A stretch of DNA of 64,000 bases from Owenia fusiformis (taxonomy: Eukaryota > Annelida > Polychaeta > Sabellida > Oweniidae): the NCBI GenBank assembly GCA_903813345.2, contig CAIIXF020000001.1, positions 42,005,366 to 42,069,365 on the forward strand, given 5' to 3'. Below are positions 10,603-37,966 of this stretch, piece after piece. The stretch's first letter is position 1. Each line of letters starts with the position of its first letter. The notes beneath the pieces were generated by a model. The model searched no databases. It saw only the letters and a program-made list of their open reading frames with translations, and had not been told where the DNA came from. The position numbers and the translations under genes were made by a program.

Positions 10603-11243
10603 GGGTTATGCACTGGGAGGTTTTGGATACAGGGAATATCCCGAGGGATATACACTATATCTTCCCGAGGGACCGAAGGGACCAAGGGAAGATATATTGT
10701 ATATCCCAAGGGATATTTCCTGTATCCAAACCGACCGTGCATAACTGTTGTATTCCATACCTGATGAGGTTTGAAATAATAAGCATGTATCCCATATGCT
10801 CTGGTGTGTTTACTTGCAAAATATATACTTTCAAATTTTCTTCCAAATTTGTTTTCAACTTTTTTTTCAGAATTTTTTTCAAAATTTTCTTACATAATTT
10901 TTTCCACAATTTTTTTCAAATTTTCATTTTCAATTTTTTTTCCCTAATTTATTTTTCAAATTTTTTTCAAAATTTTTTTTGAGCGGGACATACGATTTAT
11001 ATGTCCCGGAGCTCCGTTGTCCGAGCGGGACATACGAAAAATATTTGCCCGGATATGGAATATATTCCCGGTTGATATGTCCCTGAAACCTCATCAGGTA
11101 TGGAATACGACATATTACGTCTCTTGCGTACCACCTTCGTTTGCGCAAATTCTCACCAGTTAGTTTTTGAATAAAATACGTCGTTGTGATGTTTTAATCG
11201 ATTTAAGCATATTCCTTACATTCTTCTTTATCTTGATGTGAAA
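10603..11243. repeat. Nested palindrome family, copy 1
   Basis: A terminal hairpin at 10603-10748 has arms starting GGGTTATGCACTGGGAGG and ending CCGACCGTGCATAACTG, with a GC-rich apex (GGGACCGAAGGGACC). It is followed by a second inverted repeat: 10750-10773 (CATACCTGATGAGGTTT) pairs with 11085-11109. The inner loop holds a T-rich tract (about 10826-10980) and short CGGGACATA dyads. The flank 11110-11243 recurs in reverse at 35769-35900, so it probably belongs to the same mobile unit. The open frame at 10593-10982 crosses the hairpin and T-tract and is not a gene. Confidence 0.75.
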
Positions 11244-11852
11244 TAACAAGCTATTATATTGGTTAACACGCCAGAAATTAACATGTACACTCCCCTTCAA
11301 AAGTTTGGCAACTCTAGCTCCCTCATTGGACTACATGTTAAAGTCTCTTTATGTTTGGATTTTTAAGCCCCCCTCACATATGAACGAAAACCCCTTTACG
11401 TCAACTTGCGTATAGTGGCGAATAGGAAATTAGTCAAATTCGTTCTCATTAGTACGAGTTCGTGACAGTACGTCGCAGTGTTCGTATAGATGCGTTTGTC
11501 AGCGTTTACCTCGGTTGAAATTAGTCTTTTTCGTCGGAAAATGTTGAACATGTTCAAAAAATTGCAGCGAATAAAGGTTTCGTGTGTCATTCGTTGAAAT
11601 TCGTTTCAATGCGTTAACGATCGGTTAACCTTCGCATTGGCTTCGTCAAGTGACGTTACAGGTCGCTGGGGATAAGGTCGTATCCCCATAATTTGCATAT
11701 CAAGCGACTGACGACGATCCCATTACGAACCATTACGAACCATTGCGGCAGTTTGCAACCTTGTACGCAGTGGAACGAATTCTTACGAATTGGATCTACG
11801 TTAAGCTGAATAATTGAGAGAATACCAAATTAAATCAAATAATTATTTTGTC

Positions 11853-12183
11853 ATGGAAGACACAGATCGACTGAGGCTGCAGGCTGCAGTATGTGGCTGC
11901 TATGGCCCAGCAAGAAGTTTTAACGCAGCAACTTAACATTCATGAGTTCATCAGAGGCCGTTTTAGGCGGAGAAGGGGAGCCAGAGAACGTGGCATCTGG
12001 AGGAGACAATGGTTGAATCCAGAGAGACGGCGCCAATTCGGCATATATGATCAGCTCGGTGTTGCAAAAATGTACATCCAAATCAGCAACAACGTTTTTG
12101 AATATTCCTTTCGAAAACATGACCAACATTACAAATACTTAATCTGGCTTTTAACAAGACAAATAATTATACTAAGAGAATAA
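11853..12183 (+). pseudogene. Harbinger transposase N-terminal stub
   Basis: After a frameshift near 11890 the frame reads FIRGRFRRRRGARERGIWRR, then QWLNPERRRQFGIYDQL. This matches the N-terminal RRRR..W.R.W...R...G.Y..L signature of PIF/Harbinger transposases. Downstream text (KHDQHYKYLIWL) may be a rearranged piece of the next conserved block. The DDE catalytic domain that should follow (about 250 residues) is absent: the convergent partner gene's stop codon is already at 12283. An upstream ATG at 11853 begins in a different frame (MEDTDRLRLQAA), so the start is also disrupted. The stub cannot encode a working transposase. Confidence 0.75.
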
Positions 12184-12282
12184 ACTTTATTTAGAAAATA
12201 TCTTTATAACAAAAAATTTAGATGTAAACAACAAAATTTACAAAATAAAAACAAGAGCAGTGAACATGTCGTCACTAAGTCT

Positions 12283-14896
12283 CTAAGCACTTGACTGACT
12301 ACGTGGTGCGGATGTGGAAAAAGCATCCGAAGCAGAAGGCAGAACTGGAGCAGATGTGGGACGGGTGCTACCAACAAGAGAGACATCCATACTGAGCCCT
12401 TCTTCACCCAGGACAGGTAGGTTGCTGGGCATTGCGGGTATGTTCACATGTTCCTGTGTAGGCTTCTCCTGAAGTAGTATATCCATTCCAGACGACAGCA
12501 ATGCCTGGGTCAGAGGAGAGGCTATAGGGATAGCTTGTGGTGGACGTAAAGAACCCCTAGATAAGTCATCATGGCCCTGAGAAGACTGGCCTAAAAGTTA
12601 AGAAATAATAATTGGGTGCATGAATTTTGCATGAATAATGTAATAAATCATGAAAATAATAAACTACAATGCGATATGATAGAAACTGTCACTGAATCCA
12701 ATGGCAGTCTCGTCCCATGGGTCTGGGATATAACATATTCCCTTGTTATCTTTCTTGATTTAAAGGATGTGAATAATACACAATGTGTAGAACTCACCAT
12801 AGGAGACATTAATCAGCGATCGTCGATTGGGGGACTGCAATGTTGGATGCATCTGGGGAGTTAACTGCTTCCTCTGCTGCTGGAAATACTGCTGCATATA
12901 TCTGTCATCTTGACTGTGCCAGGGAGATGCTGTTTGTGGTGGATTTGGGATCCATCTGCTAGGCGGAGGCTGCCAGCCACCACCATGAGATTGATGCATT
13001 CCAGAGGCGTAGAAACTGTTGGTAGGACTGAAAATAAAATAAATTACCAATTACAAATACAAAGTAATGAATAACTTTATAATTTTACCCCTTTATTCCT
13101 TTACCTAGTGTTTGACAGTGTTTGACAATCGGTCAATGTTTTTTCCAAAAAATAAGCAGGTTTAAGGAAGTGCATGCGCATAATTGGTCGTGGCAGTGAA
13201 TAATTTTATGAATCCATAATTGTTTTACTTACCCACTTGAGGATGGAGTCACGGTGGAGGAGGTAGAACTGCTTGTTTTCTTAGCAAGAGGTTTGATAGC
13301 ATCATCTTCAGAGTCGGTTGACGAGTTGTACTTTGCCAAACTTGCTTCAACTTCCCTACGGAATAACTTAAAACGTCTCTTGGACATCTGTCTCATCTCT
13401 TGTGTCAAATACCGTCCATACAAGGTGGCAACATCAAACGGTTCTTCGCGTTTAACAGCAACTTTGTTGACGGATTCCTTTAGCGACTCAAGGACACTAA
13501 TAGACTCTTTCGCTGTATTTTGAAGCATGGTGATCTCTTTATCCTCATCCTCGCTGTGTTTCTTTCCTTTGCTTTTCCGTTTTAAGTCATCATCCTTCCC
13601 CTGTCTCACAGCTTCTCTCTCTGCTGCATTCAAGTCAACTGCAGGACTGTCCTCTGCTAACTGAGTAACATAAAATTCGGATAATTTAAAATGTTATCAG
13701 GTAAGAAAAAAATACTGGTTTAGAATTGTGCTATTTTTAAGTTGACTGATTTTCTTTTATGCAACCTTGGACGTTTTAACATATTTACTTAATGGTTCTA
13801 AATCATTAACATTGTTTATTGTTATACATTTATTGTTTTATTTATATTGCCTCGGGAACATAGGCCTAATGGAAACTACTTGAAACTCCCGTTTTTATCT
13901 TATCAATACATTGTATTTATGATTATCATCTTATTAGTTTTATAAACTCGATTTTCTACCTATTTATTTTACATCAGACTTTGTTGATTTTTTTTATTTC
14001 AAACAACTCCGACTCCGAAAAAATAAGCCCGTTTTTAATTTTGATTTTTTTAAGTGTCACTTATACATCACAAAGGCTTATTTCACTTCAAATTAACCAT
14101 TAAGTTACAATTGAGTATGTGGAAATATCAATCACTCACACTCTTGATAGGTGTCCTCCTATGAACCGGTCTATTACTTAGAAACGACAGATTTTGCAGC
14201 ACCCACTTTTGTTTGTATGGGAGATCGTCTCTTTCCGAGCCGGATTTTTTCAGGGACAAACGGGTGTATGTGTCTCTAATGCCCTTCCACCAGCCAACTA
14301 TATTTTCAACTGCAAATTGACATCAAGCTTGCTATGTATGTTTACTCTGAATTTTGATGCAAACCTCCATAGAGTCACATGTTATTTTTCAAATATGGAT
14401 TATACCTTTCCCACATTTCTCCATCTTTCAGTTTTGCACAAAGAGTGCACTAATGTACCTAGAAAGGACTGTAGAGATATTTTTTGATAAAATGTTTAAA
14501 AACCGAGAAAATTCAGGGAGAAAATATTTATGGACGATTGCATCAAAATTCCGAACATACAGAGTAACCTTAAACAGCATTAATTATTCATGAATGTGTC
14601 AAAGTATGCATGAATCTACAGGATATTCACAAAACACAGGTTTGAAATTGCAATCAATTCTAAATTGAATAAATAGAATAAATAGTCAGTTTTTTACCCG
14701 AAACACCGGTGCTTTTCGAGATATCTTCGAGAAGTTTCTTCTTGTTGTCCCTGTTGTGGTGATCTTCAAGGCGTATATCCCATAGGGATGGATTCATTTT
14801 ATAGAATTCTACCAACTCTTTTTCTATTTTGGGATCTTTTTTCATTTCGATTTTGTGATCCTGCCTCTTTGTGTTCTTTCTCTTTACTTTATTCAT
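12283..14896 (-). CDS. Harbinger accessory protein with MADF and BESS-like domains (5 exons)
   Basis: Exons on the - strand are 14896-14698, 14309-14178, 13653-13233, 13027-12798 and 12590-12283. Every junction is GT/AG and the phases agree. The sum is 1290 nt, giving 429 residues from the Met at 14896. Residues about 27-110 form a MADF (Myb/SANT-like) DNA-binding domain, with ELVEFYKMNPSLWDI, then GWWKGIRDTYTRL and KWVLQNLSFL. Around residues 195-230 ATLYGRYLTQEMRQMSKRRF resembles a BESS protein-interaction motif. The tail is rich in Gln, Pro and Ser. In Harbinger elements such proteins bind the element ends and bring in the transposase. The frame is undamaged although the element's transposase is lost. 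The gene may start further upstream (possible exons at 15212-15283 and 15430-15552). The acceptor at 13653 was chosen by phase and is the least certain junction. Confidence 0.8.
14368..14520. repeat. Single arm of the 4432-4852 foldback, in intron 1
   Basis: AGAGTCACATGTTATTTTTC, the CTTTGCACAAAGAGTGC-like block and the GAGAAAATTCAG end are shared with the left arm at 4480-4640, at about 80 percent identity by eye. It lies between exons 1 and 2 of the MADF gene, so it is tolerated in an intron. The second arm is absent here. Confidence 0.7.
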
Positions 14897-15211
14897 GTTT
14901 GCTGCTGGACTGAAAGACGAAAACAAACATTAACTTCATGCCTACAAATGTTTAACAACTTTGCCCCCCCCATTGTTTACATGAAAGTCATAAAAACAGA
15001 TATGATGTAATTTTTTCAATATAAACGTATTTTCTTATTATGCAAATAAGGATTCTAACTGAAGAGGCGTTAAGGCAATCCAATGGTGGGGTACGGGTTT
15101 CAAAACGTTTGGAGGGGAGTGTACATCTCAACAAAACATGTGCTACTATTTGGTATATTATACATGAATTTTGTGGTGACAAGTCACGATTAACATAACA
15201 GAAATCTTCAC

Positions 15212-15283
15212 CTTGTATATTCAGCACAGTCTGAGTGTTGCTCTCGGTTTTCACTTTTGGCCCCACACTCTATATCACCGGCA
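15212..15283 (-). other. Possible upstream coding exon of the MADF gene
   Basis: An acceptor (TTCAG before 15283) and a donor (AAG then GTGAAG at 15211) bracket 72 nt. This stays open in the frame that joins 14909 (acceptor TTTCAG), reading into SPAANMNKVK just ahead of the Met at 14896. The phase match on both sides is the only evidence. Confidence 0.4.
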
Positions 15284-15345
15284 CTGAACATAAAAATGCA
15301 CAAAATAAATATCAACGAGCGTAAAAATTACACATAGTGTATCCG

Positions 15346-15369
15346 TATGTGTGTGTGTGTGTGTGTGTA
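15346..15369. repeat. (GT)n microsatellite
   Basis: About a dozen consecutive GT dinucleotides lie inside the nested Harbinger, between the possible upstream exons of its partner gene. Confidence 0.9.
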
Positions 15370-15429
15370 TCCGTATTTACATCTAACCAAGACATACAAT
15401 TTTTGAATCTTACAAGTTTTGAATCTTAC

Positions 15430-15552
15430 CCAGGAGGACTATTGTCTATTGTGACTTCTTCCTCTGCCTTGTTTGGCTCTACGGAAGATGGTTGTGTGTC
15501 CTCTTTGTCGGGTTTGTTCTCCGGCGGTTGGTTTTCTTTTAAGTCTTGCCAT
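15430..15552 (-). other. Possible further 5' coding exon of the MADF gene
   Basis: The - strand is open and acidic here (QPPENKPDKEDTQPSS). It ends at a good donor (CCTGG then GTAAGAT, exon end 15430) whose phase fits the exon at 15283. No in-frame ATG follows the upstream TAA, so the true 5' end or another exon is missing. The ATG near 15556 lies in a different frame. Confidence 0.3.
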
Positions 15553-17151
15553 TTTTATATTTCATTAACTTACGTTGTGTGAATAGGTTAACAAGTTGTT
15601 GTCAAGTAAATTGACCCTTACACTTTTCGCAAAGGTTCGTTTAGATTCGGAAGCATGCGCACAATTGCGCTTTGGTCCGCATGTATGCGTTGTTAATCGC
15701 TGACGGGAATCGCTGACGCCTCCTGCTTTTCGTAAGGCTTTGTTCAGATTCGGAAGAATGCGCATAATTACGCTTTATTTCGCATGTATGCGTTATTACT
15801 CGCTGAAGGGGATGTCAAAGGTTGTTTAAGAGACGCAACGCATCTTAGCGAAGAAAAGTAGTAATTCGTCACACTTCGTAAAACATTCGCAACAAATAGT
15901 TACCTTACATTACTATTCGTTATGTTTTCTATTATGTAACATATTTTTAAACATTTTCGCTCAATATTCGCCAGAAATGACTAATTTACCACATGCGTCA
16001 GGCTGCGTTTGGTGGATTCGTTCATATGTGAGGGGGCCTTATTTACATAACTTGCGAAGAAAATACTTTTAATATTGATGGAAATGTAACTTGACTTGAC
16101 ATGTCAAATGCCGCCAAATTTTCCCAATTTTTTCCTCAATTACAATAGGTTGTGGAAATTCACGATAAATCTGATCAATTTTTGAAAATCGACATTCCCA
16201 TGTAAACCAATGGGAAATGGTATACTATAGGTTTGCCGTAAGTCATATTACAGAATATTAATCCATCCAAGTTCTTGCAAAATACAAGTTAGGTAGTCAA
16301 TTGAATTTGCTAACTTTATGTTATAAAAAATTGATACGTTTCTTCAGGTTTAAAAAAAATTATAGGTCTTCAAAGTCAAAATTACTTTTCAAAAAATCCT
16401 CCCATTGAAATAACACAAAGTGGCGAAAAATTATTTTCAAAAATGACTTTAGAAGCTCTGTAACTTTATTATTCATAAAGTAAACTGAACATTTAGCGTA
16501 CAAAAGAGTTACAAAATTCAATTTTATATATAAAAATATTTTTGTTGAATCTTTTAATGGATAGATATCCTGAAATCAGATTTGCTCCGAACCCAATATT
16601 TCCCATTGGTTTACATGAGAATGACGATTTTCAAAAAATTATCAAATCTATCATCAATTTTCGACCTATTTTAATTGAGGAAAAAATTGGGAAAATTTGG
16701 AGGCATTGGTAATAAAGTCAAGTTACATTTCCATCAACATTATAAGTATTTTCCTCGCAGGTTATGTACTAAATAAAAATTCAAACATAGAGAGGCTTTA
16801 ACAGTTAACACGTAGTTCAATGAGGGATCTAAGGTTGCCAAACTTTTGGAGGGGAGTGTAATATTATTCGAAGCGTTATTAGAACATTTTGAATCCGCCA
16901 TTTTTGTTTCTCGATTTGGACCAATCAGGACGGTGGGTCATCTCAATACAGATTTACATTATAGACGTACGTCATCTTTGAATCCAGGGGTTTCTCCCCC
17001 TCTTCGTATGCATATACCCATCCGTATGTTTCTTACGGATACGTATAGGTAATGCGAGCAATGAGAGTTACAAGACAGTGAATCCCCGTTAAGGTTTATA
17101 TACAGTGAACCCCCCCGGGCCGTACGGTTGCCGCAGATCAAATGTAACCTA

Positions 17152-18668
17152 GGTATTGACTTCTCTAAATGGTTCAAGATTCTATATAATTGGTCTGAAA
17201 GTTGCGTTATAAATAACGGTTTCTTTTCAAGTTTTTTTTGGATTAAAGCGTAGCTGTCGGCAGGGAGATGCCCTTTCCTGCTATGCATTCATCCTAGCCT
17301 GGAACCTTTATGTTCAAAACTTAAAAACGACAAAGAAGTTAGGGGTATTAAAGTTTATAATGAAGAAGTTCAAATGGGAATGTATGCAGATGACACTTTT
17401 GTATTTTTAGATGGCACAGCAAAATCACTAGGACGCTGCCTATGTATTTTTGATATGTTTTATGAAACGTCAGGATTAAAGTTAAATATAGAGAAAACGT
17501 CAGCTATCTGGTTAGGTAGTAAACAAGGTTCTAAAGAAAAATTATGCCAAGATAATCCAATTAACTGGGAAACAAATTTCAAACTTCTTGGAATAAACCT
17601 ATCTTCTGATTTAAAAGATGTAGAATCTCTCAACTTTGAAAACAAAATTACTGAAATGCAAAATGTTATAAGTATATCAAACTTGAATCAAACAATTATT
17701 CACTTCTTTCATTTGGAACTCAACAGTTGCAAACGTAAGTTTTTCACAAATTGTACAAGATTTTGACGACGGAGGCTTAAAAATGATTGATCCCAAGATC
17801 TTTGAACATTCACTTAAATTGACATGGTTGCAAAAAGTTCAGAAATCTGGCACATGGCAAGACATTGCACTTAATATTTTAAATGTAAACTCAAAACGTA
17901 AACTCTTTGCATATGATTCAAAATCCTTAAAGAAAATAGAAGAAAAATTTCAAATAAATTCTGGAAAGATTACACGTTTACACTTTTAGAATATACACTG
18001 AACAAAAAGAGAAAGAGGCAAATAATGATTCAAAATTGAGTGCTGAACTTGCTATGTGCAACACTTGGGCAAAGCTTACAAAGAACCAAAATGTCCAAAC
18101 AATATTGAAAAATGTAAGAGCCAATGGAGAGACAATTGTACTACAAGATATGTTTCACCAGTCTAATAGAATTTTGAATCAAGAAGAATTCAATGAAAAG
18201 TTCAATACAAACATTAATTTTCTTGACCAAAAGACCTTACTGAGCTCTGAATCAGTAAAATTTTCAAGGTCAAAGGTCATCTAACTAGGTCACACAACTG
18301 TGCAATCTAAATTTCTCAAAGTTCGAGACTACAAATCCAAATCAATATAATTGTTTGAAAGTCAGGATATACATTCCTCTGAAGGTTCCAAACTGTGTGA
18401 GCACAGGACCGTGGGTCCTTTATCAATATTACAATAAGATATAACATTTGCTTTAAATCCTTTAAAGGTAGGTTTTAATATCGAGTATTTGCATACAGGT
18501 ACACATATCTTTTAAATATTCTCCACATATTTGTCAGGATAATTGTTCTGTCATTTATACATAATGGTCCTATTCAATGATATTATGTATATTGTATATG
18601 TTAATGTACGAGAACTGCTTTCAAATGTTTTTCTATGAATAAAAAAGGAATAAAAAACAACAAAAAAC
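17152..18668 (+). pseudogene. 5'-truncated L1-like LINE (reverse transcriptase and 3' tail)
   Basis: Across frameshifts the + strand reads GIDFSKWFKILYNW, SCVINNGFFSSFF, RQGDALSCYAFILA, EVRGIKVYNEEV and the catalytic MYADDTFVFLDG. Then follow TSGLKLNIEKT, FKLLGINLSSD, DFDDGGLKMIDPK, LKLTWLQKV and FNEKFNTNINFL. This is the palm, thumb and C-terminal order of L1/Tx1-type ORF2 reverse transcriptases, which copy element RNA at a nicked target. The endonuclease domain and 5' half are missing. Frameshifts lie near 17228-17240, 17300 and 17765, with stops after 17985. The copy ends in an A-rich tail with AATAAA-like signals at about 18640-18668, consistent with normal 3' end retrotransposition. Confidence 0.85.
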
Positions 18669-19779
18669 TTCTCTATTTGTTCGAAGAAAAGTGTGTTGAT
18701 TAGCTACACCCAATTGATGACGAAGAAGCAGGCAAAATATGTATTTACATATAATTTCAGACTCTATTAATATATTGGATTGTTTACCTTAATTGACGAA
18801 GGAAGACAGGTGAACATAAAGCCACATTCACTGCTGTTCACAATTACATAAGAGTTACAAAAAGATTCTCAAACAACTAGTTCCTTCCTTTCACTCTTTC
18901 ATTTCATCCCAAGCCTCCCATCCTGCACAAATAAATAAAACTGTAATAATCAAAGGAGAGGACTTAGAATAGGCGCGAAAGCCTTTTGTCCAATCCGTTT
19001 CGTTAAACTGTATCAATATAATGTATGTAATGTAATATATAAACGAATAAAATATTCTTAATAAATAAAAAATTGATGATGCGATGGACATGCTGAAAAA
19101 GGATTTCTCATCGTAACTCTACAGCTCATGGTGGCTCTGAAAGGAAAATGGGTCTGGACACGGCATATCTATTTTGCCAAACACCAGCAAGTAAGATGGT
19201 TAATTGATCAACGGACATCCATTTCAGTCAATTGACCTAAATGTACTAATGGCTTTTAATGCTGAAAAACAATTTCATGGAAATACTTCAGAAATAAGTA
19301 GATATTTGTAATGGACCAAGTGGATAAAGGTGGATTCGTTAGATCGTCTTATGAGGTTATATATCGCATCATGTAAAAAGTATAGTCCACTGAGAATGTT
19401 GCCAAAGTTATGACTGAGCGTAATGACATGACACAATTGCTAATAGAGTTGCGGCCTAATATTCACTTTTACTCGATTTATGGTGAAAGGTTTATCCATT
19501 ACTTGACAAATAGAACCACTTTGGCATTTTTTCCTGGGATTGTCTGTTGAAAGACTTAGTTTCAATTTAGCGCCTGTCTATTATCTAACAAGGGCACTTG
19601 TGTTGTTAGCTAATGTAATATTGTCATCGAGCTATCATTCCCTGATGTCAAAACCTACTTGATGGATCCTTTATCCCAATCTCTCTAAGAGGCCAATGTT
19701 TCGTCATTGGACTCTAAGTGCACCATCATTACATTTTATTTTGTTTCATTTTGAAAGGTTGCAACGTGATTTTGTTCCC
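18669..19779. other. Unannotated AT-rich stretch
   Basis: No gene, RNA or repeat is recognised. Confidence 0.4.
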
Positions 19780-20036
19780 CATTCGTCCAAATCCCAATGG
19801 TCAGAATCCCATTCGACTGAATCCCAATTGTCCGAATCCAAATGGTCCGAATCCCATTCGTCCAAATCCCAAATGGTCAGAATCCCATTCGTCAGAATCC
19901 CAAATGGTCAGAATCCCATTCGTCCGAATCCCATTCGTCCAAATCCCATTCGTCCAAATCCCAAATGGTCAGAATCCCATTCGTCCGTATCCCAATTGTC
20001 CGAATCCAAATGGTCCGAATCCCAAATGGTAGTGCA
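19780..20036. repeat. Minisatellite, ~15-bp unit
   Basis: The unit AATCCCATTCGTCCR repeats about 17 times with variants (CAAATGGTCAG, CAATTGTCCG). Because the period is a multiple of three, all three + frames stay open and give repetitive peptides. These frames (19696-20064 and two others) are not genes. Confidence 0.9.
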
Positions 20037-22193: not shown

Positions 22194-22537
22194 ATATATA
22201 GTCCAAGGATGCATGTTACCAGACTATATTTTCTATGGTATACAATATAACTTCGAGGTATTTATACTGACGAACTATAGATACGTTGACAGCAGTCCCA
22301 TCCCCATTCAGTACCAATCCTAAATAGCATACCCCATTCAACCAGCTTTGCCTCTTTTTAAGGAGTGATATTCGATTGTTTGGGAATTCTTTGCTAAAAT
22401 ATGATATCCTGATCCAAATATCAATTATATTTTCAAGTAATATTCGATCTATATCATTGTAACCATGGGGTAATAGTAGTTAGCCTAATTCACTATTTTA
22501 TTTCATTCTAGTAGTGTGATCTTCGACAACTGTACAT

Positions 22538-23554
22538 ATGGCAGGCATTGACCCAGTCACCGCGGCCGCTATTATTGATGACAAGGATGACGAGGAAACA
22601 CTCCTCCTATATCACTTATTTGAGGAAGATAGGCGTGATGGTATTAACGCATTCAGAATAAATCTAGAAAGACTATCAAATGAAGAGTGCAGTCTCTTGT
22701 TTCGATTTGAAAAAGATGATCTATTCAGGATATCTCAGGTCATGGAGTTACCAAACGTATTCACTGGTTATAACCGATGTTCGTGTAGTGGCATCGAGGG
22801 CTTGTGCCTTTTACTTCGCCGTCCTGTGTACCCAAATCGACTGTGGGACATCAATGGGATGTTTGGTATGGATCTGTCGACAACTTTTGGACCTCTTTTA
22901 ACAGAGTTTAACCAGCCATGGATGACCATTCCAGATTTACAACGATATGCTCGCGCGATTCAGGCTAAAGATGCCCCTCTTATAAACTGTTGCGGTTTTA
23001 TTGATGGGACTCCAAGACCATGTGCTCGTCCACAGGAAGGGCAGCGTCATTTCTACAGTGGGCATAAAAGGGAACACTGTCTTAAATTTCAGTCTATCAT
23101 ATTACCCAATGGCATTATTACAAATTTGTATGGGCCTGTTGAGGGGTCCCGGCACGATGCCTCAATGCTGCGTCGCAGTAATATCCTGGATGCACTTGAA
23201 ACAAAAAGCCTGCCTAACGGGGAACCCATGTCGATTTATGGAGACCCCGCGTACCCCCGAACTCCCCATCTTATTACCCAATTTAGAGGACCCGATGTGA
23301 CCCCTCAACAGGCCCAATTCAATAGAAGTATGAGTTCTGTGAGGGAAAGCGTTGAATGGGGTTTCGGAAAAATCATCAGGGAATTTGCTTTTTTGGACTT
23401 TAAAAAGAATCTCAAAATACTTTTATCTCCAATAGCTAAGTATTACAAAAATGAAGCTTTTTTAACCAATGTGCATACATGCCTTTATGGTAGTCAAGTG
23501 AATACTTACTTTAACACTGAACCTCTGTTACTTGAATACTACATTCATAGATGA
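22538..23554 (+). CDS. PIF/Harbinger DDE transposase (HARBI1-like), intact
   Basis: A single uninterrupted 338-codon frame from the ATG at 22538. It cuts the element out and inserts it at TWA sites, acting in the nucleus with a Myb/SANT-like partner. Visible blocks in family order are RFEKDDLFRISQVM (about 56-69), a short helical domain, then GFIDGTPRP with catalytic D156. Next come YSGHKREHCLKFQS and GPVEGSRHDASML, then YGDPAYP with D236 and SSVREAVEW-type text (SSVRESVEWGFGK) with E273. It ends LLTN-like (AFLTNVHTCLYGSQ). The DDE triad is complete, and length and end match full-length members. Upstream ATTCTAG at 22506-22512 could be a splice acceptor for a 5' non-coding exon. The shorter frames overlapping it are shadows. 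The partner gene lies downstream and convergent at 25198-29562. Confidence 0.92.
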   Translation: MAGIDPVTAAAIIDDKDDEETLLLYHLFEEDRRDGINAFRINLERLSNEECSLLFRFEKDDLFRISQVMELPNVFTGYNRCSCSGIEGLCLLLRRPVYPNRLWDINGMFGMDLSTTFGPLLTEFNQPWMTIPDLQRYARAIQAKDAPLINCCGFIDGTPRPCARPQEGQRHFYSGHKREHCLKFQSIILPNGIITNLYGPVEGSRHDASMLRRSNILDALETKSLPNGEPMSIYGDPAYPRTPHLITQFRGPDVTPQQAQFNRSMSSVRESVEWGFGKIIREFAFLDFKKNLKILLSPIAKYYKNEAFLTNVHTCLYGSQVNTYFNTEPLLLEYYIHR

Positions 23555-28100: not shown

Positions 28101-29562
28101 CAGAGAGTGAGGTGGGGTGCCAGATGGGAGCTAGGGGTTGTCTCCAAGAAACATTGACCATATCAAGGTGCTATTAAATGGTGTCTGTGAACTTTAAACG
28201 TATCTGAGAAAAAAACATAAAATAAATTCAAAATTTTCAATTGTTTTGTATATTGGTCCCCCTAGAAAAAGTTACAATTTTAAAATGCTATCTTGTGCTT
28301 TCTTGGAACTTTCAAAGTGTATGATTCAATAAGACACATTGACTTTTTATGGGGGGGGGGTGTAAATTAGGGAACCAGGGGGGGGGAGTAGACTATATCC
28401 TATTTAGTCTGAATAATATTCAGACTATACATATAAAAACTATTTGTTTACATAGGAAGTGATATTCAAAATGGCTATTCAAAATGGCGGGAGTGAATTA
28501 ATTTGCATATTTGTTACTTCAACTAGCTTTATTTCCACCTAATATGCTGTGTTATTATTGCATTTAATTAATTGTACCTTACTACTTAATTGAAGTGATA
28601 AAATGTTGTTTTTTTAACTAATGCTTCCTCAAATTGATAATTTTTGGCAGAAAATTTCACTGCAATTTCCACAGGACAGTAGTACATCATAACAGACTGA
28701 CTTCTATAGTCAGTCTGTTAGATACATACTAAGAGGTGGAGGTGAGGTGGGGGTGCTAGAGAGGAAGCAAGTGTTAAATGCTGACTATAGTAAGGAGCTA
28801 TTTGATGATGTCTGGGCACTTTAAAAGTGTCTTAGACAATGTATCAAATAACTTCAATTGTTTTGTGGGGGTGTGAGGGTGGCCCACTCCCTCTAGAAAA
28901 TTTTGCAATTTCTTTATCGGGGGGGGGGGGGGTGCTAGTCTATATCCAATAGACTGAATGAGAATTTTCATTCCAAATTTCAAAAAAAATTAAGACTGAA
29001 TAAGATGTTGTCTAGGGGGTATGCAGTCGCATCCATAGAACCCCCCCCCCCCCCATCTGACGGCCCTGCCAAAGACAGCTTAGGTGTAACATGCTAATTG
29101 TGCATGGGTTTTTGATATACACAGATGATGGCATTAATTATCGTTAGGTATTCAGTGATTGCCTTGTCTGATAAGAAGACGTGTATGGCCAATCATACAA
29201 TTGCTAACTTGATATTGATATAATTGATATAATTACATGTACTTATATTAATACCTAAATGACCTACAAGAATATTGAAACTTTAAAGATTAAATCCGGG
29301 AGATAAGATCATAAAACGTTTCGTCTTACTTGGATTTCCGCAATCTGTCCTCCCTCTTGAACGATTTGATGAGGAGTTCCATCCTCTCACGAATAGTTCG
29401 TAAACTATCAACGTGGAGACTTTTACACACGTCGAGGCGAACAGCCTCCCAATTGGGAGGATTCTCCCATGGATTTCTTGCCAGGGAAGAACGCACTAAG
29501 ACTAAGTCGTCTTTGAGTCTAAAGTAAACACGTTTTTTGGCGCTTTCTTGATCTTGAGACAT
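25198..29562 (-). CDS. Harbinger Myb/SANT-like partner protein (3 exons)
   Basis: Exons are 29562-29330, 25915-25686 and 25301-25198. Their lengths (233, 230 and 104 nt) sum to exactly 189 codons and both introns are GT/AG, so the model gives an uninterrupted 188-residue protein. Residues about 13-75 form a Myb/SANT-like domain: YFRLKDDLVLVR, NPWENPPNWEAV and RERMELLIKSFKREDR. The first junction rebuilds RKSKSGTEEEYDEM, a run I recognise as conserved after this domain. A Lys/Glu-rich linker follows, then a short C-terminal coiled coil, IELEERKFALEERKW. In this family the protein binds the element's terminal motifs and carries the transposase into the nucleus. Start choice: the Met at 29562 comes just before the domain, and the longer open frame to 29643 is upstream leader. 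The 3.4-kb first intron is swollen by other repeats. Confidence 0.85.
25408..25583. mobile_element. MITE, second copy of the 22019 family
   Basis: It matches 22019-22193 in the same orientation over its whole length at roughly 90 percent (ATTATGGTCCC, GGCCCTGATTGTGTA, ATAATTTGATAGG). The left TIR has decayed (GATTGTGAAAG), the right is intact (CTTTTACACCGG), and no duplication remains. It lies in intron 2 of the partner gene. Confidence 0.85.
27021..27134. repeat. GC-apex hairpin in intron 1 of the partner gene
   Basis: ACCCCTTAGGGCTAGGCACA on the left pairs with the inverse of TTTGTGCCTAGCCCTGCGGG on the right. Outer ATATTCGATAT and GTCGATATA text extends the pairing. The loop (CCCCTCACTCCCTTCGGTCG) is itself GC-rich. 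Mirror-image open frames on both strands (26974-27189 and 26993-27175) are artefacts of this dyad. Confidence 0.75.
27480..28915. repeat. Alternating A/B tandem array, ~130-150-bp units
   Basis: Type A units carry GTGGCCCGCTCCCCCTAGAA and then GATGCTATTTGGTG. Type B units carry GAGGTGGGGTGCCAGA, then AACATTGACCATATCAAGG and GTGCTATT. Both end in TCTGGGCACTTT.AAAGTGT..GA..CAATAA, so A and B are diverged forms of one unit. A units start near 27505, 27787, 27965, 28228 and 28850. B units start near 27650, 27880 (partial), 28100 and 28735. An unrelated piece with G-runs interrupts at about 28340-28730. The array lies inside intron 1 of the partner gene. Confidence 0.75.
28916..29325. other. Intron sequence with G/C homopolymer runs
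   Basis: It has a run of about 12 G at 28920 and about 14 C at 29041. No coding or repeat structure is recognised beyond these runs. Confidence 0.5.
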
Positions 29563-30240
29563 GATGTTCAGCAGTCCACGCGCTATGGATGAATATTGAA
29601 GGCTCATTGTGCTGTTTATAAGTACGATTTGCAGGCCACTCACTCAAAATCAAATTAGTTGACTAATTAGCCTGGTTCCTTTCATCAAAATTAGCACGAT
29701 ATACACTAAACATTATGTAGGTCACTTAAATTTAACATTTAGGGGAAATTGATAAACATTTGAAGGACAAAAATAGATGCGGAAACAACTACGCACAAAA
29801 GTGTCAACTTTACGTACTTTCGGTATTGCAGTCGATAACACAAACGTATTGAGTCCACATTTGCTCCATCGATGCGTTACGGATTTTGATACGGGCAGCT
29901 GAAACGTTGTGCGAAGCAACTACACTGTGATTATTGTAATACCATTCCACACAGTGTAAAATGAATTGAACATACCATTTGGAAAACTCGATTTATGTCA
30001 AACAATAAACAAATCCATTCACCAAATCTAAGTCATATATTGAACAACACAATGTGTTTGTTCATACAGTGATACTTTTGGAACTAAAATCAATGTAATT
30101 GTATGATAAAATGGGATGCGTAAATGACCAACGTACAAAAGCCTCATTTTTCGTGTTTTCCGTATTGCTGCACGTATAAATTGGACGGACTGCGCATAAA
30201 TCTGGTAAATACGTTACGGATACGGATACGTTGCGCTAAA
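29563..30240. other. 5' flank of the partner gene and subterminal Harbinger DNA
   Basis: Short variants of the TIR motif recur (ACGTTGTGCGA near 29911, CGTTACGGATAC near 30212), as expected for subterminal transposase- or partner-binding sites. No gene is seen besides the leader of the partner gene. Confidence 0.45.
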
Positions 30241-30294
30241 AAACGTTGTGCGAAACCTCTCTATTATGTCCATTGTCGCGCGGTATTTGCGATA

Positions 30295-31177
30295 CATAAG
30301 GGTTATGTACTGGGAGTTTTTGGATATGGGGTTTATCCAGAGGGAGATATGCATATCTACCCGAGTGACCGTAGGGACCGTAGGGACCGAAGGTAGATGT
30401 GCATATCTCACGAGGGATGAACCGAATATCCAGACCGACCATACATAACTGCTTTATCCTATACCAAGTAGAGTTTTCAGGGGCATATGGCAATTTCAAT
30501 AGTACAAGGTGTAAAAATAAACAAATCTTTCATATGCAAAGTCATTTTATCGCACTGAAGCGGGAGATATGGAGGTTCTGGATATGGAAACCTTAAAATC
30601 AGGATATGGGATATATCTTACCAACTTATCTCCCTAAAACAATTCTTGGCATCGGATAAAGGTGAGTATTTCATACTTGAGTGGGTTTGGGGTAGATATC
30701 ACCCGGGAATATATATCATATCTGAGGAGCGGGCAGGATATATTGTATATGTCCCGCTCTAGGGCAAATGCGGGCAGATATAATATATCCATCCCGCTCC
30801 CGGGAATTTTTTCAAAAGTTTAAAAAAGTTTAAAAATTTTAAAAATTTAAATTTCAGAAGTTTAAAATTTTTCAAAAAGTTTAAATGTTACAATTCTATT
30901 GTATTGAACTGAAGGAATATTAAGAAAATGTTAAATATAAATTGTGCTTTTACAGTATAGGCCTATCTTGTCATTTGAAAAAGGTGGTAAAGGTTATATC
31001 TACCCCAAACCCACTCAAGTATGAGATACACCAGTTATGTACGGTCGGTTTTGGATACAGTGTTTATCCCGCGGGAAATATGTGTATCTCCCTCGGTCCC
31101 TGCGGTCCCTCGTGAGATACACATATTTCCCTTGGGATAAACCCGGTATCCAAAACCTCCCAGTACATAACCCTTAT
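30295..31177. repeat. Nested palindrome family, copy 2 (most complete)
   Basis: Left terminal hairpin 30295-30450 (GGGTTATGTACTGGGAG to CCGACCATACATAACTG) and right terminal hairpin 31032-31177 (CAGTTATGTACGGTCGG to CCTCCCAGTACATAACCC) are each self-complementary, with arms of about 60 bp. They are also reverse complements of each other. Inside, a second inverted repeat pairs 30673-30699 (TGAGTGGGTTTGGGGTAGAT) with 30995-31023. Inside that are CGGGCAGATATAATATA/TGTCCCG dyads and an AT-rich loop (about 30785-30950). Apex sequences are CGGTCCCTRCGGTCCC or the complement. There is no coding capacity. It starts 32 bp beyond the Harbinger right end. Confidence 0.85.
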
Positions 31178-31367
31178 ATATGTGATACATTGGTTTTATT
31201 TATTGCACTGCCTTGTTGAATGATTCAGTAATCATTATAATATCTCATAAACTGTTGTGTACTTCCGTAACGCATTCTTATTAGAATGTCATATTCACCA
31301 GCGGTATATGAAATATTCAACTGCAGAATATGTTTATCTCGTGTTTACCGCACATAACAACAGTGAT

Positions 31368-32000
31368 AGTTGGTGTCTGTGACGAAGTTAAGGGGTCAGT
31401 TAACGTTATCGGGTTTGTCTTTACCCAAGTCATGTAAGCCTAACTTTATATGGAAGTCAAAGATGGCTTCAAAACAGCCGTTAAAATAAAATGGTAACTT
31501 TATCTAAGAAGATAGAGCATTTAGGATAGCGAGTTTGGTGTCAGGGATTCTACTTTTACCCACGGTCAAACTGCCCTAATACGTAACTTACGTAGTAGTT
31601 ATATATAAAAAATGTAGGTAATTAGGGCTAAACAGTGATTTAAGTGTCTGTCTTCAGTTTTCTTAACTTAAATCATTAATGCCTTCCTTTAAATGAGAAT
31701 TCAAGATGGCCACCAATATGAGATAAGGACAATTTAGCAGCTTTAGTGTGCTTAATTATAAAAAGAAAGAAAACCTTTCGCCATCTGGAATGGATATGTG
31801 ACCAATTCTAAGCATATTGAACAGTGATCCACGATCCGTCAAGATGGCTGCCAAAATATAGTAGCCTACATAATGGGTAGTAATATCTAAAGCAATATCA
31901 AGACTGTGGTTTTGGTGTCTATGACTAAGAGTGAGAGGTAAAACCTGTAGCCGTTGGTTATGTTAAGTTACCCAAGCATTTGGTAAAACTCTTAGAAATC
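31368..32000. repeat. Degenerate repeat cluster (TTTGGTGTCT / AAGATGGC motifs)
   Basis: TTGGTGTC recurs near 31368, 31528 and 31912, and AAGATGGC near 31461, 31703 and 31843. The surrounding text is loosely similar, with spacings of 160-385 bp. It looks like an old, eroded tandem or dispersed repeat and boundaries are unsure. Confidence 0.4.
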
Positions 32001-32231
32001 AAAGGAGTGCACCTACACAAAGACGAAAACCTTACACATTTTCTGCATTTTAGTGTAAGTACTCTATATTTCTTTAGAATTTTTTTTTTGATATATTCGT
32101 TTATTCTTGGCCCTTCTTCGATATTTCTTGAACACTCTGAAGCGGGTGGGCGCTTATCAAGGTAAGACTTTTCATTTTTTTCATTCCATTGGACATTTCA
32201 TATTTCATATTGTGTTCTACAATAAAGCATC

Positions 32232-32308
32232 AGATTTTCACGTGCATTTAATTTTCGCGATGTTGTGTCACCCTCGAAAACGGGAAATTAAGTGCACGTG
32301 GATTTTAA
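32232..32308. repeat. Short dyad, TCACGTGCATTTAATTTTCG
   Basis: TCACGTGCATTTAATTTTCG is followed about 20 bp later by the inverse, CGGGAAATTAAGTGCACGTGG. The arms are about 22 bp with a few mismatches. Possibly a tiny MITE or its remnant. Confidence 0.55.
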
Positions 32309-32340
32309 GTGTTTTACAGTAAGTTGGATCAGGCTATACA

Positions 32341-35300
32341 GAAATTACATTGTTTGTTGGCCAGGAACCCAAACAAGAGACGGAAATCATTTTAGCGCCC
32401 ACCAAAGAATATCTTTCCAATCAATTTTTAGATAAAGTTACTTATGTATCATTAAAAGATGCTCATGTCATTTAACATCAAACTCTACTTTAAGGTAACT
32501 CAATTTTCGAATTTTACTGAGATTAATGAGGATTACACCAAGGGTGTATTGACTTTAACACGGGGATATACACAACATTGACTTAACTTGGTGATATCAT
32601 CACGGTGATTGATACAAAATCCTCATTATCAGAGAACCCAAGTTAATCGAGTCTCAACAATTAGATTCATGTGGTATAGTATGGTAGAATCCAATTTCAA
32701 TAAATAAGATATTAAATTTAAACGAGGGTCCTATTCGTAGATCAGCTAGGGATCCCTTCTATATTTTAATTCCATACATAATCAATTGAAAAACAGAACA
32801 ATCCCTATCCAGGATACGATATCTGAATACATGAATATGACACTTGCTGAATTCATATTATGACACCCACTGGGGTTGCGATCTTGGTTAGCTCTCAGAT
32901 GATTAAGAGTATTCCCCATTCATGATTAATAGATGATTGATTTTGTTCATGGCGTCTTTCATTGTTATATCACAACATCCAAGAACTAACTACAAGTTAG
33001 CCTAACTATATCTTGATCCTTCAAATCAAAATCTTACTGAGATGATTGCGATAAATGTCAAATAAGAGAATTACAACACTCTTAACCTCAAACAATAGTT
33101 TAAATGTTCATCTTAACAATGAGTTCTTATTGAACAACGACATTTCAGAACTTACAATTCAAATAGGACGCTCAAAGCTAAGATTGCAGGTTGGCAGAGT
33201 TCAACAATCGATCACATTGGTGGATGAATAATTGTCTCAAGATGATCCAGGAGATCAGTATGTCATTTTAGATGAGACTTCAGAGAAAAACTTTTCTTTG
33301 TACAGTTTTATATATAATCCCATTATGCAATTAGAAATCGAGGTGAACGTGTTGGATTTTCATTGTTTCGCCGACCCAAATGACATGTTTGTCGAATTGG
33401 TCAAAGAGGATGTCTTTATTAGTGTTGAAGTAAAAGTAAAAATTGTGATGAAACGTCACTTTGATGATGATGGATTACACTGGTGTAAGTTCACACAGTA
33501 AAGTCCACTTTCAATTAAAAAAATTCCAGGATGTATCTTTCTCAATACAAAATACTACATTGATCTCTCAGATATCATTATAAAATATTAAGTTGATCTT
33601 GGCTCCAAAGAATAATCAGTTGGGAATGTTTAACGCTCGTGTGATTTCAAATGACAATAAATGAAAACGGAATGAATAGATGTTTTTGCAAGAATCTCTT
33701 GTTAGTAGATATTCTTAGTTTACTTTTAGAAGCATACGATACTTTGGAAAAGAAGGCGATGTGGTTAATATCAATGCTTGTACAGGATGGGCAATACACT
33801 ACTTTTTAGGAGGGCAGTGAATTCATCCATACCATAATAACCATATACGTTTTTAAGAAGTGAATTCAGTACAATGTTTTTTATGGATGGGGTGTTACTG
33901 ACACAAGTATGTGATTTTATACTTATATCAAAACATAATTTTTTGTAACTTTGTAACCCTATGATACTTATTATACTTATAAACATTTGTCTCAGTTAAA
34001 GTAGAATTAAAACCTATGTTGAAACTTGAAGGTTCATTCTCCCTGTTTTCTTTATGACTTTATGGTTTGTGTACTTATAGATATTTTTCCTTGCTGTGTT
34101 CCGAAACGATTTTTGGTCCTTTCCATTTGGTACGTGTGCATACAGTTCCACATTCATTTATAACTTGCTTTAAAAGTGTCATCCTTATGCAAATATAAAA
34201 TCAAAATTAAATAGAATTGAATCACTTAATTGCCTCTGTGATTGACCATCTTTATCTTTTGAGGTAGGATTATTTTGTAAATAATTTAGTACAGGTAAAT
34301 ACAATTTACCAACCCTCGGTTCCTACTGTCCTTCAGGTAACATCGACTAATGTATGTTTTGTGTGATGAATGAATAACTCCGAGATACTTGTAATGTAAT
34401 AATCGCCACACAGTTGTCTTAAATTGGACATTGATTAAAATATATCACCAAGAAAAATAATCCATTCTGAGGCAAAAGGGGAATTAACCCAAACTATCGA
34501 ATGATAAATCTGAAAAAGATGGGAATACGATGATTGCATGCACAAGCTGCAATTATCATTTCGTGGACTGAAGTATGATTAGACTAACATCGGTAAATAA
34601 TTCAATTGTATCATACACTCTTGTTGATGAGAGCTGAAGGCGAAAACATCTCCAATTTAATGGGCGTCAATGGAAAAACAAAAACAAATTAATTTTGACT
34701 TTAAAAGTTAATGGTTCATCGTAACCACATTAAACGAAGTTTTTGTATGAGAGACGCAAATAGAAAAAGTGAATCAGTTCATAAACAAAAACAAATGTGA
34801 GTTCCATAGCCATACTATTTTTAGGAAATGATTATAAAAATACATCGTTCCCAAGAATCGGTTATATAATTTCTGCGACAAACATAGAAAATACAGCCAC
34901 TTGAGTGGATTGAGTGGATTGTTCTTAAAATAGTTGTTGACATTTTCTTTCCATAAGTATTTACTTACATTTTGTAAGTTTCAAATATTTTCAATGAGAT
35001 TTATCTCCTAGTTTTTTCAGTATTTTTAATTTTTAAACTGTATAATTACACCGACTGAATTAATCATCATCTATCGATAGCTAGTCCTTAGGCCACTGCT
35101 ACAAACAGATAAACATGTTCTGCTAAAAACAATCACAGAGACTTTATCCTTTGATCCATCACTTGACAAAGATTGATAATATGGTAGATTGATATCTGTC
35201 TCCGTTGGTCCAATTGCAATTTTTGGAAATATAACTTAGTCTAAAACCACTTGAAGTTGAAATGAGGCAAAATCTGTAAAGGCATAAGTATTACGATTGA

Positions 35301-35768
35301 TGAACTAAACCATGTGAATTCGATTCAAATTGTACATATCAATCGATTCCTGCTCATCATTACGTAAATTGTAGGGGTTATTTGTCAGTCGTGTGACAGA
35401 CAATCAGTATGGTTTCACTATCAATCAGAATGATCATTCTGATACTCATAGCATCTTTCTGTTTCACCTGAAACATGCTCTGATATTACGAGGTATATTC
35501 TATGATCTGACCACATCAGATGAGAAGGGTTATAACTGTCAATAAGTGTGATAGTTATCATGTAATCATTTACCTTAATGTGAATCCAAATTACATAATA
35601 GGCATTGTATTCAACAGCAGATATTAGAACAGGCACAGGTACATAAGTTTTATGAGCCCAATAATGAAATATGAGCTGGGATGAAAGATCTCAAAAATCC
35701 TCAATTTTGGCTCTCCTGGATCGCCAAATCAGGCTCATTATATCATGATATATACAATGAAGAGGGTT
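32341..35768. other. Long unannotated AT-rich stretch
   Basis: No known domain, RNA gene or clear repeat. One 89-codon open frame (33232-33501 +) is acidic and ends at a donor-like GTAAGT, but it begins without an ATG and has no recognised similarity, so it is not called as a gene. Confidence 0.4.
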
Positions 35769-35900
35769 TTTCACATCAAGATAAAGAAATATCTAAGGAA
35801 TATGTTTACATCGATTAAAACATCACGACGACGCGCTATGTTCGAAAATTAACTGGTGAGAATTTGCGCAAACGAAGGTGGTACGCAAGAGACGTATTAT
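35769..35900 (-). repeat. Reverse copy of the palindrome-family flank
   Basis: It matches 11108-11243 in reverse over about 130 bp at roughly 85 percent (TCACATCAAGATAAAGAA, ATCGATTAAAACATCAC, TTTGCGCAAACGAAGGTGG). In the first copy this sequence abuts the nested palindrome. Here no hairpin follows, so it may be a solo end or a separate repeat used as an insertion site. Confidence 0.7.
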
Positions 35901-36379
35901 GTCAGTCATCGCTAAAGCTCTGGGGCTTTCCCTCCTCTTTATACAATGGAGACATTTGGTGCAGTGTACTACTGTGTAGCAATGTAGTTCATAACCTTAC
36001 TGAAACTAATTGGACAAAATGGTATGTCACAAGAGAAATATATGTTTCCATAAGGAATGGGGTTACTAAATCAACTTTATCAACGTTGGAATTAAGAGCA
36101 CGTTATCCATTATATCAACTCCTTTCTCTTCACTTATCCTAGAATCTAAGCTAGAACGAAACCTTCTTGGTAAAAATAAAAATTTCCTCCAAATGGAAGT
36201 TCATCCATTTACCAGATGGGGACCTGTGAATGGGCTCGGGATCGATCATTCTGAACAGTGCGCCAGTGCGTTCAAAATTGACGCGCGTTTTCATAATAAC
36301 CGACTATTTGTATGTAGTAATTAGTTATTCATGCAACATACTTTTGTAAGTACTAAGCCATGATATAATTGTTTCTACT
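35901..36379. other. Unannotated spacer
   Basis: No gene is seen. Only a short dyad around 36168-36220 (GGTAAAAATAAAAATTTCC with CCATTTACC) was noted. Confidence 0.35.
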
Positions 36380-36618
36380 GTTTTTCTGTTCATATATGGG
36401 CCTGTTGCAACACACTGTTCTGTTTGTATGTAGGCTAGTCATTTACAGATGTCACTGCAGGTATAATTTTTGTTTGTTTGTATTTAGGCGTGTTATTCAC
36501 ACAGCCCATCGCAAGTATAATGTTTATGTTCGAATGCAGGCGTGTTATTAACACTGCAGATATAACGTTTCTGTTCTTTGGATACATGCGTGTTATTTAC
36601 CCAACACATGCATATATA

Positions 36619-37473
36619 GAGATTATCCTATAGTCGGTTCAGGATATTGGGATTATCCCGAGGCTAATATAATATATCTGCCCGAGGGCCGTAGGTAACA
36701 AAAATGAACCAATATGCGGGACGTAAAGCTATATCTGCCCGTTGATGAAAAGGTAAGTTTTTACAAACCTGCTTTGTGTACCTGTGACACGTCCAAGTAT
36801 GGAATAAATAATACTTCTGTTTGTATGTAGGTGTGTTATTTACACAACATACAACATTCGAGTTTATTCTCACACAGGATACAGCATATCCCCATGCATA
36901 TGTAGTTGTGTTATTCGAACAACATACAGCATATCCCCATTTATCCCATACTTGGACGTGTTACGGGTACGTAAAGCCGGTTTGTAAAAACTTATATCTT
37001 CATCAGCGGGCAGATATAGCTTTACGTCCCGCTCCGAGCGGGCAGATATAGTATATCTGCCCGCTACGTCATAATCGCAGTTCCCGTATTGGTTCTTTTT
37101 TGTAACGTTCGCATACTGTAAACGACAATGGAGAAAAACGCAAACAATCGATCGCGATCTGTTTGATGCTTTAGAGAAGGGAAGGAGCAGTATGCCCCGT
37201 TAATATTCAAATATTTGAACAGGAAAATCCGGCTACGGACAAGAATAAAAAACTGGACATGAATATTTTAAAATAATTCCACGATTGGTTGCAACAATTG
37301 AACAATGTGATTGGTATGGGATAAACAGATCATCCTATAGTCGGTTCAGGATATTGGGATTATCCCTTGGCCAATATAATATATCTTCCCTCGGGACCTA
37401 CGGACCTCGGGCAGATATATTATATTGGCCTCGGGATAATCCCAATATCCTGAACCTCATATAGGATAATCTC
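36619..37473. repeat. Nested palindrome family, copy 3
   Basis: Outer arms 36619-36695 and 37396-37473 are reverse complements (GATTATCCTATAGTCGGTTC and CAGGATATTGGGATTATCCC within the left arm). Inner arms 36699-36808 and 36941-37104 pair through TTTACAAACC...CACGTCCAAGTATGG, and the loop between them is satellite DNA (36822-36940). The right side has its own hairpin, 37333-37468, with apex CTCGGGACCTACGGACCTCG. The spacer 37105-37325 shows nothing else. Confidence 0.75.
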
Positions 37474-37966
37474 TATTTATCCTATGCCAAGTAGAGTTTC
37501 AAGGAGATAAGTTGGCAAGATATATCCCGTATCCTGATTTTGAGGTTTCCATATCCTGAACCTCCATATCTCCCGCCATATCTCCCGCTCCAGGGCATAT
37601 CTGCCCGCTTCGAAAAAAATTTGAAAAATAAGAAAAAATTAAAAAAAAAGAAAAAATGTGAAAAAATTTGAAAAAATTAAAAAATTGAATTGAAAAAAGA
37701 AAGAAATAGAAAATATAGAAAAAATTTGAAAAATGTGGAAAAATTTAAAAAATAAAAAATATTGAAAAAATTGAAAGAAAATTAGAAAACTCTACTTGGT
37801 ATAGGATAAAGCAGTTATGTACGGTCGGTTTGGATATAGGGTTCATCCCTCGTGAGCTATGCACATCTACCTTCGGTCCCTACGGTCCCTCAGGTAGATA
37901 TGCATATCTCCCTCTGGATAAACCCCATATACAAAACCTCCCAGTACATAACCCTTATGTATTATG
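37333..37966. repeat. Nested palindrome family, copy 4
   Basis: Terminal hairpins 37333-37468 (shared with copy 3) and 37809-37966 flank inner arms 37457-37480 (ATGCCAAGTAGAGTTT) and 37785-37808 (AAACTCTACTTGGTAT). The loop is an A-rich tract (37610-37785) preceded by short CGGGCAGATAT-type dyads. The right hairpin has arms of about 60 bp (TTATGTACGGTCGGTTTGG with the inverse of CCTCCCAGTACATAAC) and apex TTCGGTCCCTACGGTCCC. Confidence 0.75.

Follow-up and report, generated by a model that had tools for sequence, protein, structure and literature searches.

Animal Cryptons are related to several domesticated genes (KCTD1, ZMYM2-4 and QRICH1) and are reported to have no terminal repeats, direct or inverted, in the accessible part of the account by Kojima and Jurka (2011, PMC3212892). 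In integrons, one strand is exchanged and the product is resolved by replication, according to the available sections of two papers (PMC8946536, PMC2727003). A 64,000 nt stretch of the genome of the annelid Owenia fusiformis (GenBank assembly GCA_903813345.2, contig CAIIXF020000001.1, positions 42,005,366 to 42,069,365, forward strand; hereafter the window) contains palindromes that we interpret, with a probability of roughly 0.8, as non-autonomous Crypton-type transposons mobilised by the DUF3504-class tyrosine recombinase of 2.4–2.6 kb elements found elsewhere. They are most likely neither foldback elements nor Helitrons, despite their resemblance to both.

Five complete units of 364–536 bp and one truncated unit are present in the window, some of them adjoining (Table 1). 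Each unit starts with a 5' tip and a core, after which the tip recurs in inverted orientation; a short spacer then leads to one hairpin of about 145 nt at the 3' end. The tips of the complete units are GTATTCCATACC, GTATTTCATACTTG, TTATCCCATACTTGG, TTATCCTATGCC or TTATCCGATGCC, and the hairpins end in CATAACCCTTAT, CATAACCCCTAT or GGATAATCTCTAT. Units e2A and e2B lie tip to tip, 6 bp apart, and the first base of e4 is the base right after the end of e3. The roughly 130 bp between e3m and e3 are most likely host DNA, since they largely match (at about 36826–36938) a 46-bp tandem satellite beside the cluster (37958–38136 of the window). The remaining hairpin arm of e3m (36614–36700) reads like its partner arm, which would fit a flipped stem, and a similar flip-like arm is found in another locus, L052 (both read by eye).

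A sequence-only reading of this DNA had described a hierarchical design at four places, with two terminal hairpins enclosing an inner palindrome. Strong inverted repeats are indeed present at all four (for example, 45-nt arms at 91%, 67-nt at 87%, 94-nt at 89% and 85-nt at 93%), and the GC-rich apices it noted are found as CGGTCCC-type apices in the e1, e2 and e4 units, but the common layout was not borne out at these places. The interval 10603–11109 has a single hairpin only and corresponds to the minus-strand unit e1; 30295–31177 is two complete units placed 5' tip to 5' tip (e2A and e2B); 36619–37473 comprises e3m, the satellite-like DNA and e3; and 37333–37966 is the hairpin of e3 followed directly by e4. 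The nested design dissolves into independent asymmetric units. The inner arms do differ between copies, because the units belong to different families, and the parts that had seemed exchanged or regenerated are the 5' tip of the unit concerned and the inverted copy of that tip. A palindrome amplifier is unneeded, as adjacent or opposed insertions account for the nesting.

Table 1. Crypton-like units and related features in the window (positions are those of the 64,000 nt stretch)
Feature	Position	Strand	Remarks
e1, complete non-autonomous unit, 510 bp	10599..11108	-	5' tip GTATTCCATACCTGATGAGG at 11108; 3' end CATAACCCCTAT at 10599; AT-rich minisatellite core
e1 3' terminal hairpin, 146 nt	10599..10744	-	
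e2A, complete unit, 364 bp	30296..30659	-	5' tip TTATCCGATGCCAAG at 30659; hairpin at low-coordinate end
e2B, complete unit, 512 bp	30666..31177	+	5' tip GTATTTCATACTTGAGTGGG; inverted copy of the tip, 38 bp, then the hairpin with 3' end CATAACCCTTAT
e2B 3' terminal hairpin	31035..31177	+	3' end region 93% identical (163 nt) to recombinase-encoding L067
e3m, truncated unit	about 36614..36807	-	5' tip at around 36807; most of one hairpin arm missing
e3, complete unit, 536 bp	36941..37476	+	Tip TTATCCCATACTTGG; end GGATAATCTCTAT; core resembling decayed recombinase gene start (weak)
e4, complete unit, 482 bp	37477..37958	+	Abuts e3 3' end, head-to-tail junction
Likely empty site for e1, related repeat without insertion	35870..35940	-	

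The genome searched comprises 498 Mb in 525 contigs. A query with the 146-nt hairpin gave 1,859 first-look candidates, the best 40 of which were scored and were all 98–100% identical, and the hairpin-end 20-mer AAGGGTTATGTACTGGGAGG occurs 1,246 times, while its reversed control gave 0. Twenty e2B-type copies were fetched from the 40 scored places, the window's own excluded, and represent best matches rather than a random sample. In each of the 20 there is one hairpin, at the 3' end, with the 5' tip motif 463–515 nt upstream of that end, and the flanks differ from copy to copy. Because the scored copies are near-identical, a recent spread of e2B-type units is inferred.

Insertion sites were examined by searching with 20 joined flanks, and for L009, L013 and L017 the insertions could be compared with empty sites in related repeats. 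No base was gained or lost at L013 or at the L009 junction, each compared with three empty sites, and in two of the L013 sites a single substitution lies 5 bases before the junction. The recombinase-encoding element L070 (described below) has four empty sites, AAGT^ATAATAG, with no duplication and no base gained or lost, one of which carries two substitutions 5–6 bases before the junction. In L050, an e3-type unit sits in an e4-type hairpin at CACAT^CTA. Target duplication was found neither at the empty sites read (L009, L013, L017, L070 and the likely one of e1) nor at L050, and the ends of these and the other elements studied showed no direct repeats, apart from a flank repeat at L010. The base preceding the insertion is T in 18 and C in 2 of 20 cases, and the next four bases are ATAT (11), GTAT (3), TTAT (2) and ATAG, GTAA, ACAT and ATAC (1 each); these counts include L014 and L016, each directly followed by another unit. 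The target is mostly T^NTA.

These results bear on two explanations raised by the sequence-only reading. Units that face each other in the window resemble a foldback element, whose hairpin termini would be cut and pasted by a DDE transposase. All 20 e2B-type copies are nevertheless single asymmetric units with the hairpin at one end, the empty sites read lack a target duplication and the longer elements carry a recombinase gene, which makes a foldback nature highly improbable. The proposal of a transposon family is itself supported. A replication- or recombination-driven amplifier is favoured to the extent that the arm-flipped e3m shows hairpins can rearrange. Against it stand 1,246 exact 20-mer copies, the differing flanks of the 20 copies read and the presence of empty sites, which, at the level of the assembled sequence, also make an assembly artefact unlikely; we give very little credence to either.

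The e3-type core looks by eye like a decayed gene start, and a peptide from it, suggestive of a tyrosine recombinase, prompted a DUF3504 search of the genome, which returned 33 matches. Seventeen recombinase loci (L054–L061 and L066–L074), fewer than the DUF3504 matches, were read, and the same plan of tip and hairpin is found in nine (L054–L056, L059, L060, L067 and L069–L071). The plan-bearing elements are 2.4–2.6 kb long, and the genome includes recombinase elements with 97–99.9% DNA identity. In the L054–L056 family (2.36–2.38 kb), the tip is TTATTCCATAGTTAG, and the inverted tip is followed by 150 nt that include the hairpin and run to the 3' end CCTCTAT. At the tip as at the hairpin end, the copies cease to be homologous in DNA within about 9 bp. 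Five genes of this family, the query included, are 98–100% identical in protein, and the R, HxxR, GHK and NY motifs are readable in the L054–L056 proteins. L069 and L070 form a 2.6-kb family, and L059 and L060 are single copies with the same plan, their 3' ends being set by eye. The R (HFGIR/HFGFR), HxxRKT, HK and Y motifs were read in L055, L059 and L060. Pfam matches to DUF3504 were obtained at 1.7e-12, 1.6e-20, 5.5e-23 and 6.9e-21 (the last for L067), and Phage_integrase was matched in three proteins, over the cut-off in L059 only. The sole match in a sequence search of solved structures (E up to 1) was QRICH1 (9hjt, E 4.5e-08); an AlphaFold model of L059 (6 rows) was too poor to be used (mean predicted local distance difference test score 46.5).

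The link to the window is provided by L067, a 2,406 bp element on contig C9 with a 33-bp inverted tip (97%) and three exons, two located by tblastn and the third by eye. Its 3' region is closely similar to that of e2B (Table 1), the 3' 12-mer CATAACCCTTAT being common to both, and its tip is 75% identical to that of e1 over 68 nt. The e3 core plays no part in the recombinase assignment, for which L067 and the other full elements are the basis.

When the two ends were joined, a single long hairpin was predicted in 12 of 13 elements (10 families, as L055/L056 and L069/L070 are pairs), the exception being L057. In the predicted folds, the first 14 bases of the tip pair with the upstream strand at 12–14 positions in 12 of the 13, and at 5 in L057, while 5–7 of the last 7 element bases are unpaired in e1, e2A, e2B, e4, L067, L059 and L060. 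In 12 of the 13 elements, the best match between the first 60 and the last 330 bases starts at base 1, at a distance of 125–187 nt from the 3' end; no inverted tip repeat of that kind was found in L057. The inverted tip scores better than all 200 shuffles in eight (e1, e2A, e2B, e4, L067, L056, L059 and L060), the margin being narrow in e2A, L056 and L059. Covariation was assessed in 7 of the 21 distinct hairpins recovered by a motif search of the fetched loci, the remainder being mostly near-identical e2B copies. In this set, 12 of 56 stem pairs are changed on both sides and 95.4% of cells are paired, with a covariation score of 0.201 versus 0.083 for shuffled stems (reached by 0 of 500 shuffles). 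Pair counts exceed column shuffles on four of five measures and are low with slid partners, and the measure of further pair types was not above column shuffles (324/500). The stem covaries.

Exact head-to-tail junctions are a further feature of these elements. The 3' end ACATAACCCTTAT is followed directly by the tip-like NTATNNCATA at 75 places in the genome, against about 4 expected by chance (from 1,246 ends, 16/20 NTAT targets and a chance CATA), and the 3' end GGATAATCTCTAT is followed directly by it at 80, a count that uses a shorter 13-mer. Both reversed controls gave 0. These are counts of pattern matches, a few of which have letters unlike known tips; judged by letters, several join different families. 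Recombinase elements also occur in tandem, at L054 (two copies, 99.9% identical) and L071.

Several observations weigh against the Crypton-type assignment. At L009, the empty sites differ by three substitutions 4–6 bases past the junction and, 12 bases past it, by a gap of one base; at L017, compared with three empty sites, the right side is exact, and on the left a gap of 2 or 4 bases and two substitutions fall within about 9 bases; the unfilled repeat for e1 differs by one base at the 3' junction; and L010 has an 11-bp flank repeat (by eye). Among the recombinase loci read, the plan is partial in two (L066 and L072) and absent from the fetched stretch in six (L057, L058, L061, L068, L073 and L074), and L067 is the only recombinase element of the 17 with the hairpin of the window. 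In exon 3 of L067, two positions that are usually His are occupied by Tyr (NYSARKTL) and by Gln (GQK), so its recombinase may be inactive. In the predicted folds, only 2–3 of the last 7 bases are unpaired in e3, L055, L056, L069 and L070, and the inverted tip ties with shuffles in e3 and fails in L055, L069, L070 and L057. The tie between the e3 core and the recombinase N-termini is weak: in blastp searches of three short N-terminal sequences, made without composition correction, one core peptide matched L057 at E 3.7e-05, L067 at 4.6e-04 and L055 at 0.034, and a second matched L057 and L067 at 0.003, and when two single-frame core peptides were compared with the recombinase loci by tblastn, there was no match at E up to 1. 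Neither a circle nor activity was observed in this analysis of genome sequence. A peptide read across frames matched L066 at E 6.6e-05 and was not used for assignment. No coding relative was found among the longer e3-type copies (L062 and L063). At one position in the core, these two contain DNA unlike each other's, about 730 bp in L062 (930–1660) and about 480 bp in L063 (974–1460, reverse).

An initial reading placed the units among the non-autonomous elements of the Helitron2/Helentron type (HINE), which a Rep-helicase would move via rolling-circle replication. In the accessible parts of the descriptions (PMC3627910, PMC5148889), such elements resemble those described here in that their terminal inverted repeats are asymmetric and precede a 3' hairpin, and in that they insert mostly without duplication, and some non-autonomous Helitron2 show variable duplications of 7–19 bp, which could cover L010. 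The genome also has 58 Helitron_like_N matches, 35 of them in open frames over 2000 aa. That reading was dropped when the one Rep-helicase family with a defined 3' end (L021–L023) proved to end in a short hairpin and CCTTGT, and the coding elements found with the right ends encoded tyrosine recombinases. In addition, the inverted tip of Helitron2 is placed 20–30 bp from the 3' end in those descriptions, far closer than in the 12 elements above, and its targets are TTTT^T/C or TT. We therefore consider a Helitron2 origin improbable. As to the Helitron-type elements of this genome themselves, L021–L023 are about 99.5–99.9% identical over 5.3 kb and are probably a recently active family; 39 of the 58 Helitron_like_N matches lie in open frames of 1800–3377 aa and 33 are off contigs C1–C12 (on C13, C158, C505, C515 and others); and, of the families L039–L046, which were read downstream of Rep, L039–L041 show tandem repeats of about 154 bp there (by eye). 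The window further contains a 344-aa open frame at 22520–23554 that matches DDE_Tnp_4 (E 5.8e-25), a DDE transposase of another transposon, and a reverse transcriptase fragment at 17254–17766 (RVT_1, E 1.6e-07).

For the Crypton-type elements, the anatomy suggests a recombination site that is split by linearisation. The 5' tip would be one arm (R'), and at the 3' end the inverted tip would serve as R'', separated by a short spacer from a second arm, L''; next would come the long stem with its apex, the arm L' that matches L'', and a spacer of about 7 nt, which ends in TAT in most families. As to an extrahelical-type asymmetry of the L-stem like that of attC, a mismatch of the GTCGG/CTCG versus TGAGG/TGAG type was seen by eye in the L067/e-type, e3, L055 and L069 families, and is nearly or fully missing in L059 and L060. 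Excision would give a circle joining L'-spacer/R' (the slash marking the join), predicted for the L055 family as GGATATCCTCTAT joined to TTATTCCATAG, and the recombinase would integrate this circle at T^NTA sites. The tips of other elements may be favoured targets, building arrays: the 5' tip (T/GTAT or T/TTAT) would itself be a good target, which would explain them.

How the strands are exchanged allows two possibilities. In the circle, the tip, inverted tip and hairpin would fold into a long palindrome, and the spacer next to the junction would be unpaired in part. More speculatively, the folded single strand could be the substrate, as it is for integron attC sites. One strand of the folded structure (R''-L''-terminal structure-L'-R') would then be exchanged at the L'-spacer/R' core and replication would resolve the product, which would account for the lack of duplication and the constant junctions, and gene-less 'cassettes' would build up by the thousand, some of them in head-to-tail arrays. 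We put forward tentatively, at somewhat less than even odds, that the recombination substrate of Crypton-type transposons in animals is a single strand folded into a hairpin, attC-like in layout. Alternatively, recombination may take place at conventional double-stranded sites (L'-spacer-R'), with the hairpin serving replication, transcription end or small RNAs. The circle junction in three families reads by eye as inverted arms of about 10–12 bp around 6–8 bp, close to the 11–13-bp arms and 6–8-bp spacers given for usual tyrosine-recombinase sites in the available text of PMC3212892, and the target T^NTA resembles the junction T/GTAT or T/TTAT. Two-strand exchange with a 6–8-bp overlap would, however, be expected to leave the terminal spacer at the 5' end in about half of the copies, and it precedes the 5' tip in 0 of 20; this suggests one-strand exchange, although a repair bias would give the same result. 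Double-stranded sites also leave unexplained a long hairpin that is kept in several families and covaries in one, and are likewise a possibility we would place somewhat short of an even chance.

The complete ends, empty sites, near-identical recombinase elements and over a thousand non-autonomous copies allow an animal Crypton recombination site to be tested directly. The sequence-only reading knew of no named class with this layout, and a literature search that reached few subscription papers likewise gave no description of the architecture, or of animal-transposon ends of this kind. Similar palindrome clusters elsewhere may be filed as Helitrons or foldback elements.

Among the known systems, integrons differ in their bacterial IntI, attI platform and gene-carrying cassettes, and single-strand recombination has been shown for them and is only proposed here. 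In the parts of PMC2727003 and PMC8946536 consulted, integron cassettes and attC resemble the predicted layout of the present elements: a tyrosine recombinase, a site split by linearisation, outer-core crossover and head-to-tail arrays. Folded attC is a palindrome that contains two core sites, antiparallel to each other, and spacers that are not complementary. Were the folded strand also the substrate here, the elements would be a eukaryotic counterpart of integron-like single-strand recombination. The CryptonF and CryptonS elements of fungi and oomycetes also have a tyrosine recombinase, and a circular intermediate has been proposed for them, but they carry terminal direct repeats of 4–6 bp, of which none were found here, and the passages available mention no hairpin. 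Animal Cryptons (CryptonA and CryptonI; PMC3212892, as far as accessible) are similar in their DUF3504-related tyrosine recombinase and in having short non-autonomous derivatives that outnumber the full elements, and differ in that the Owenia elements are joined head to tail and have inverted tips, which are asymmetric, and a long hairpin at the 3' end. Since the Cryptons described in these sources have terminal direct repeats or no repeats, and the present elements have asymmetric inverted repeats and a hairpin, the hairpin-ended plan is a new form of Crypton-type element.

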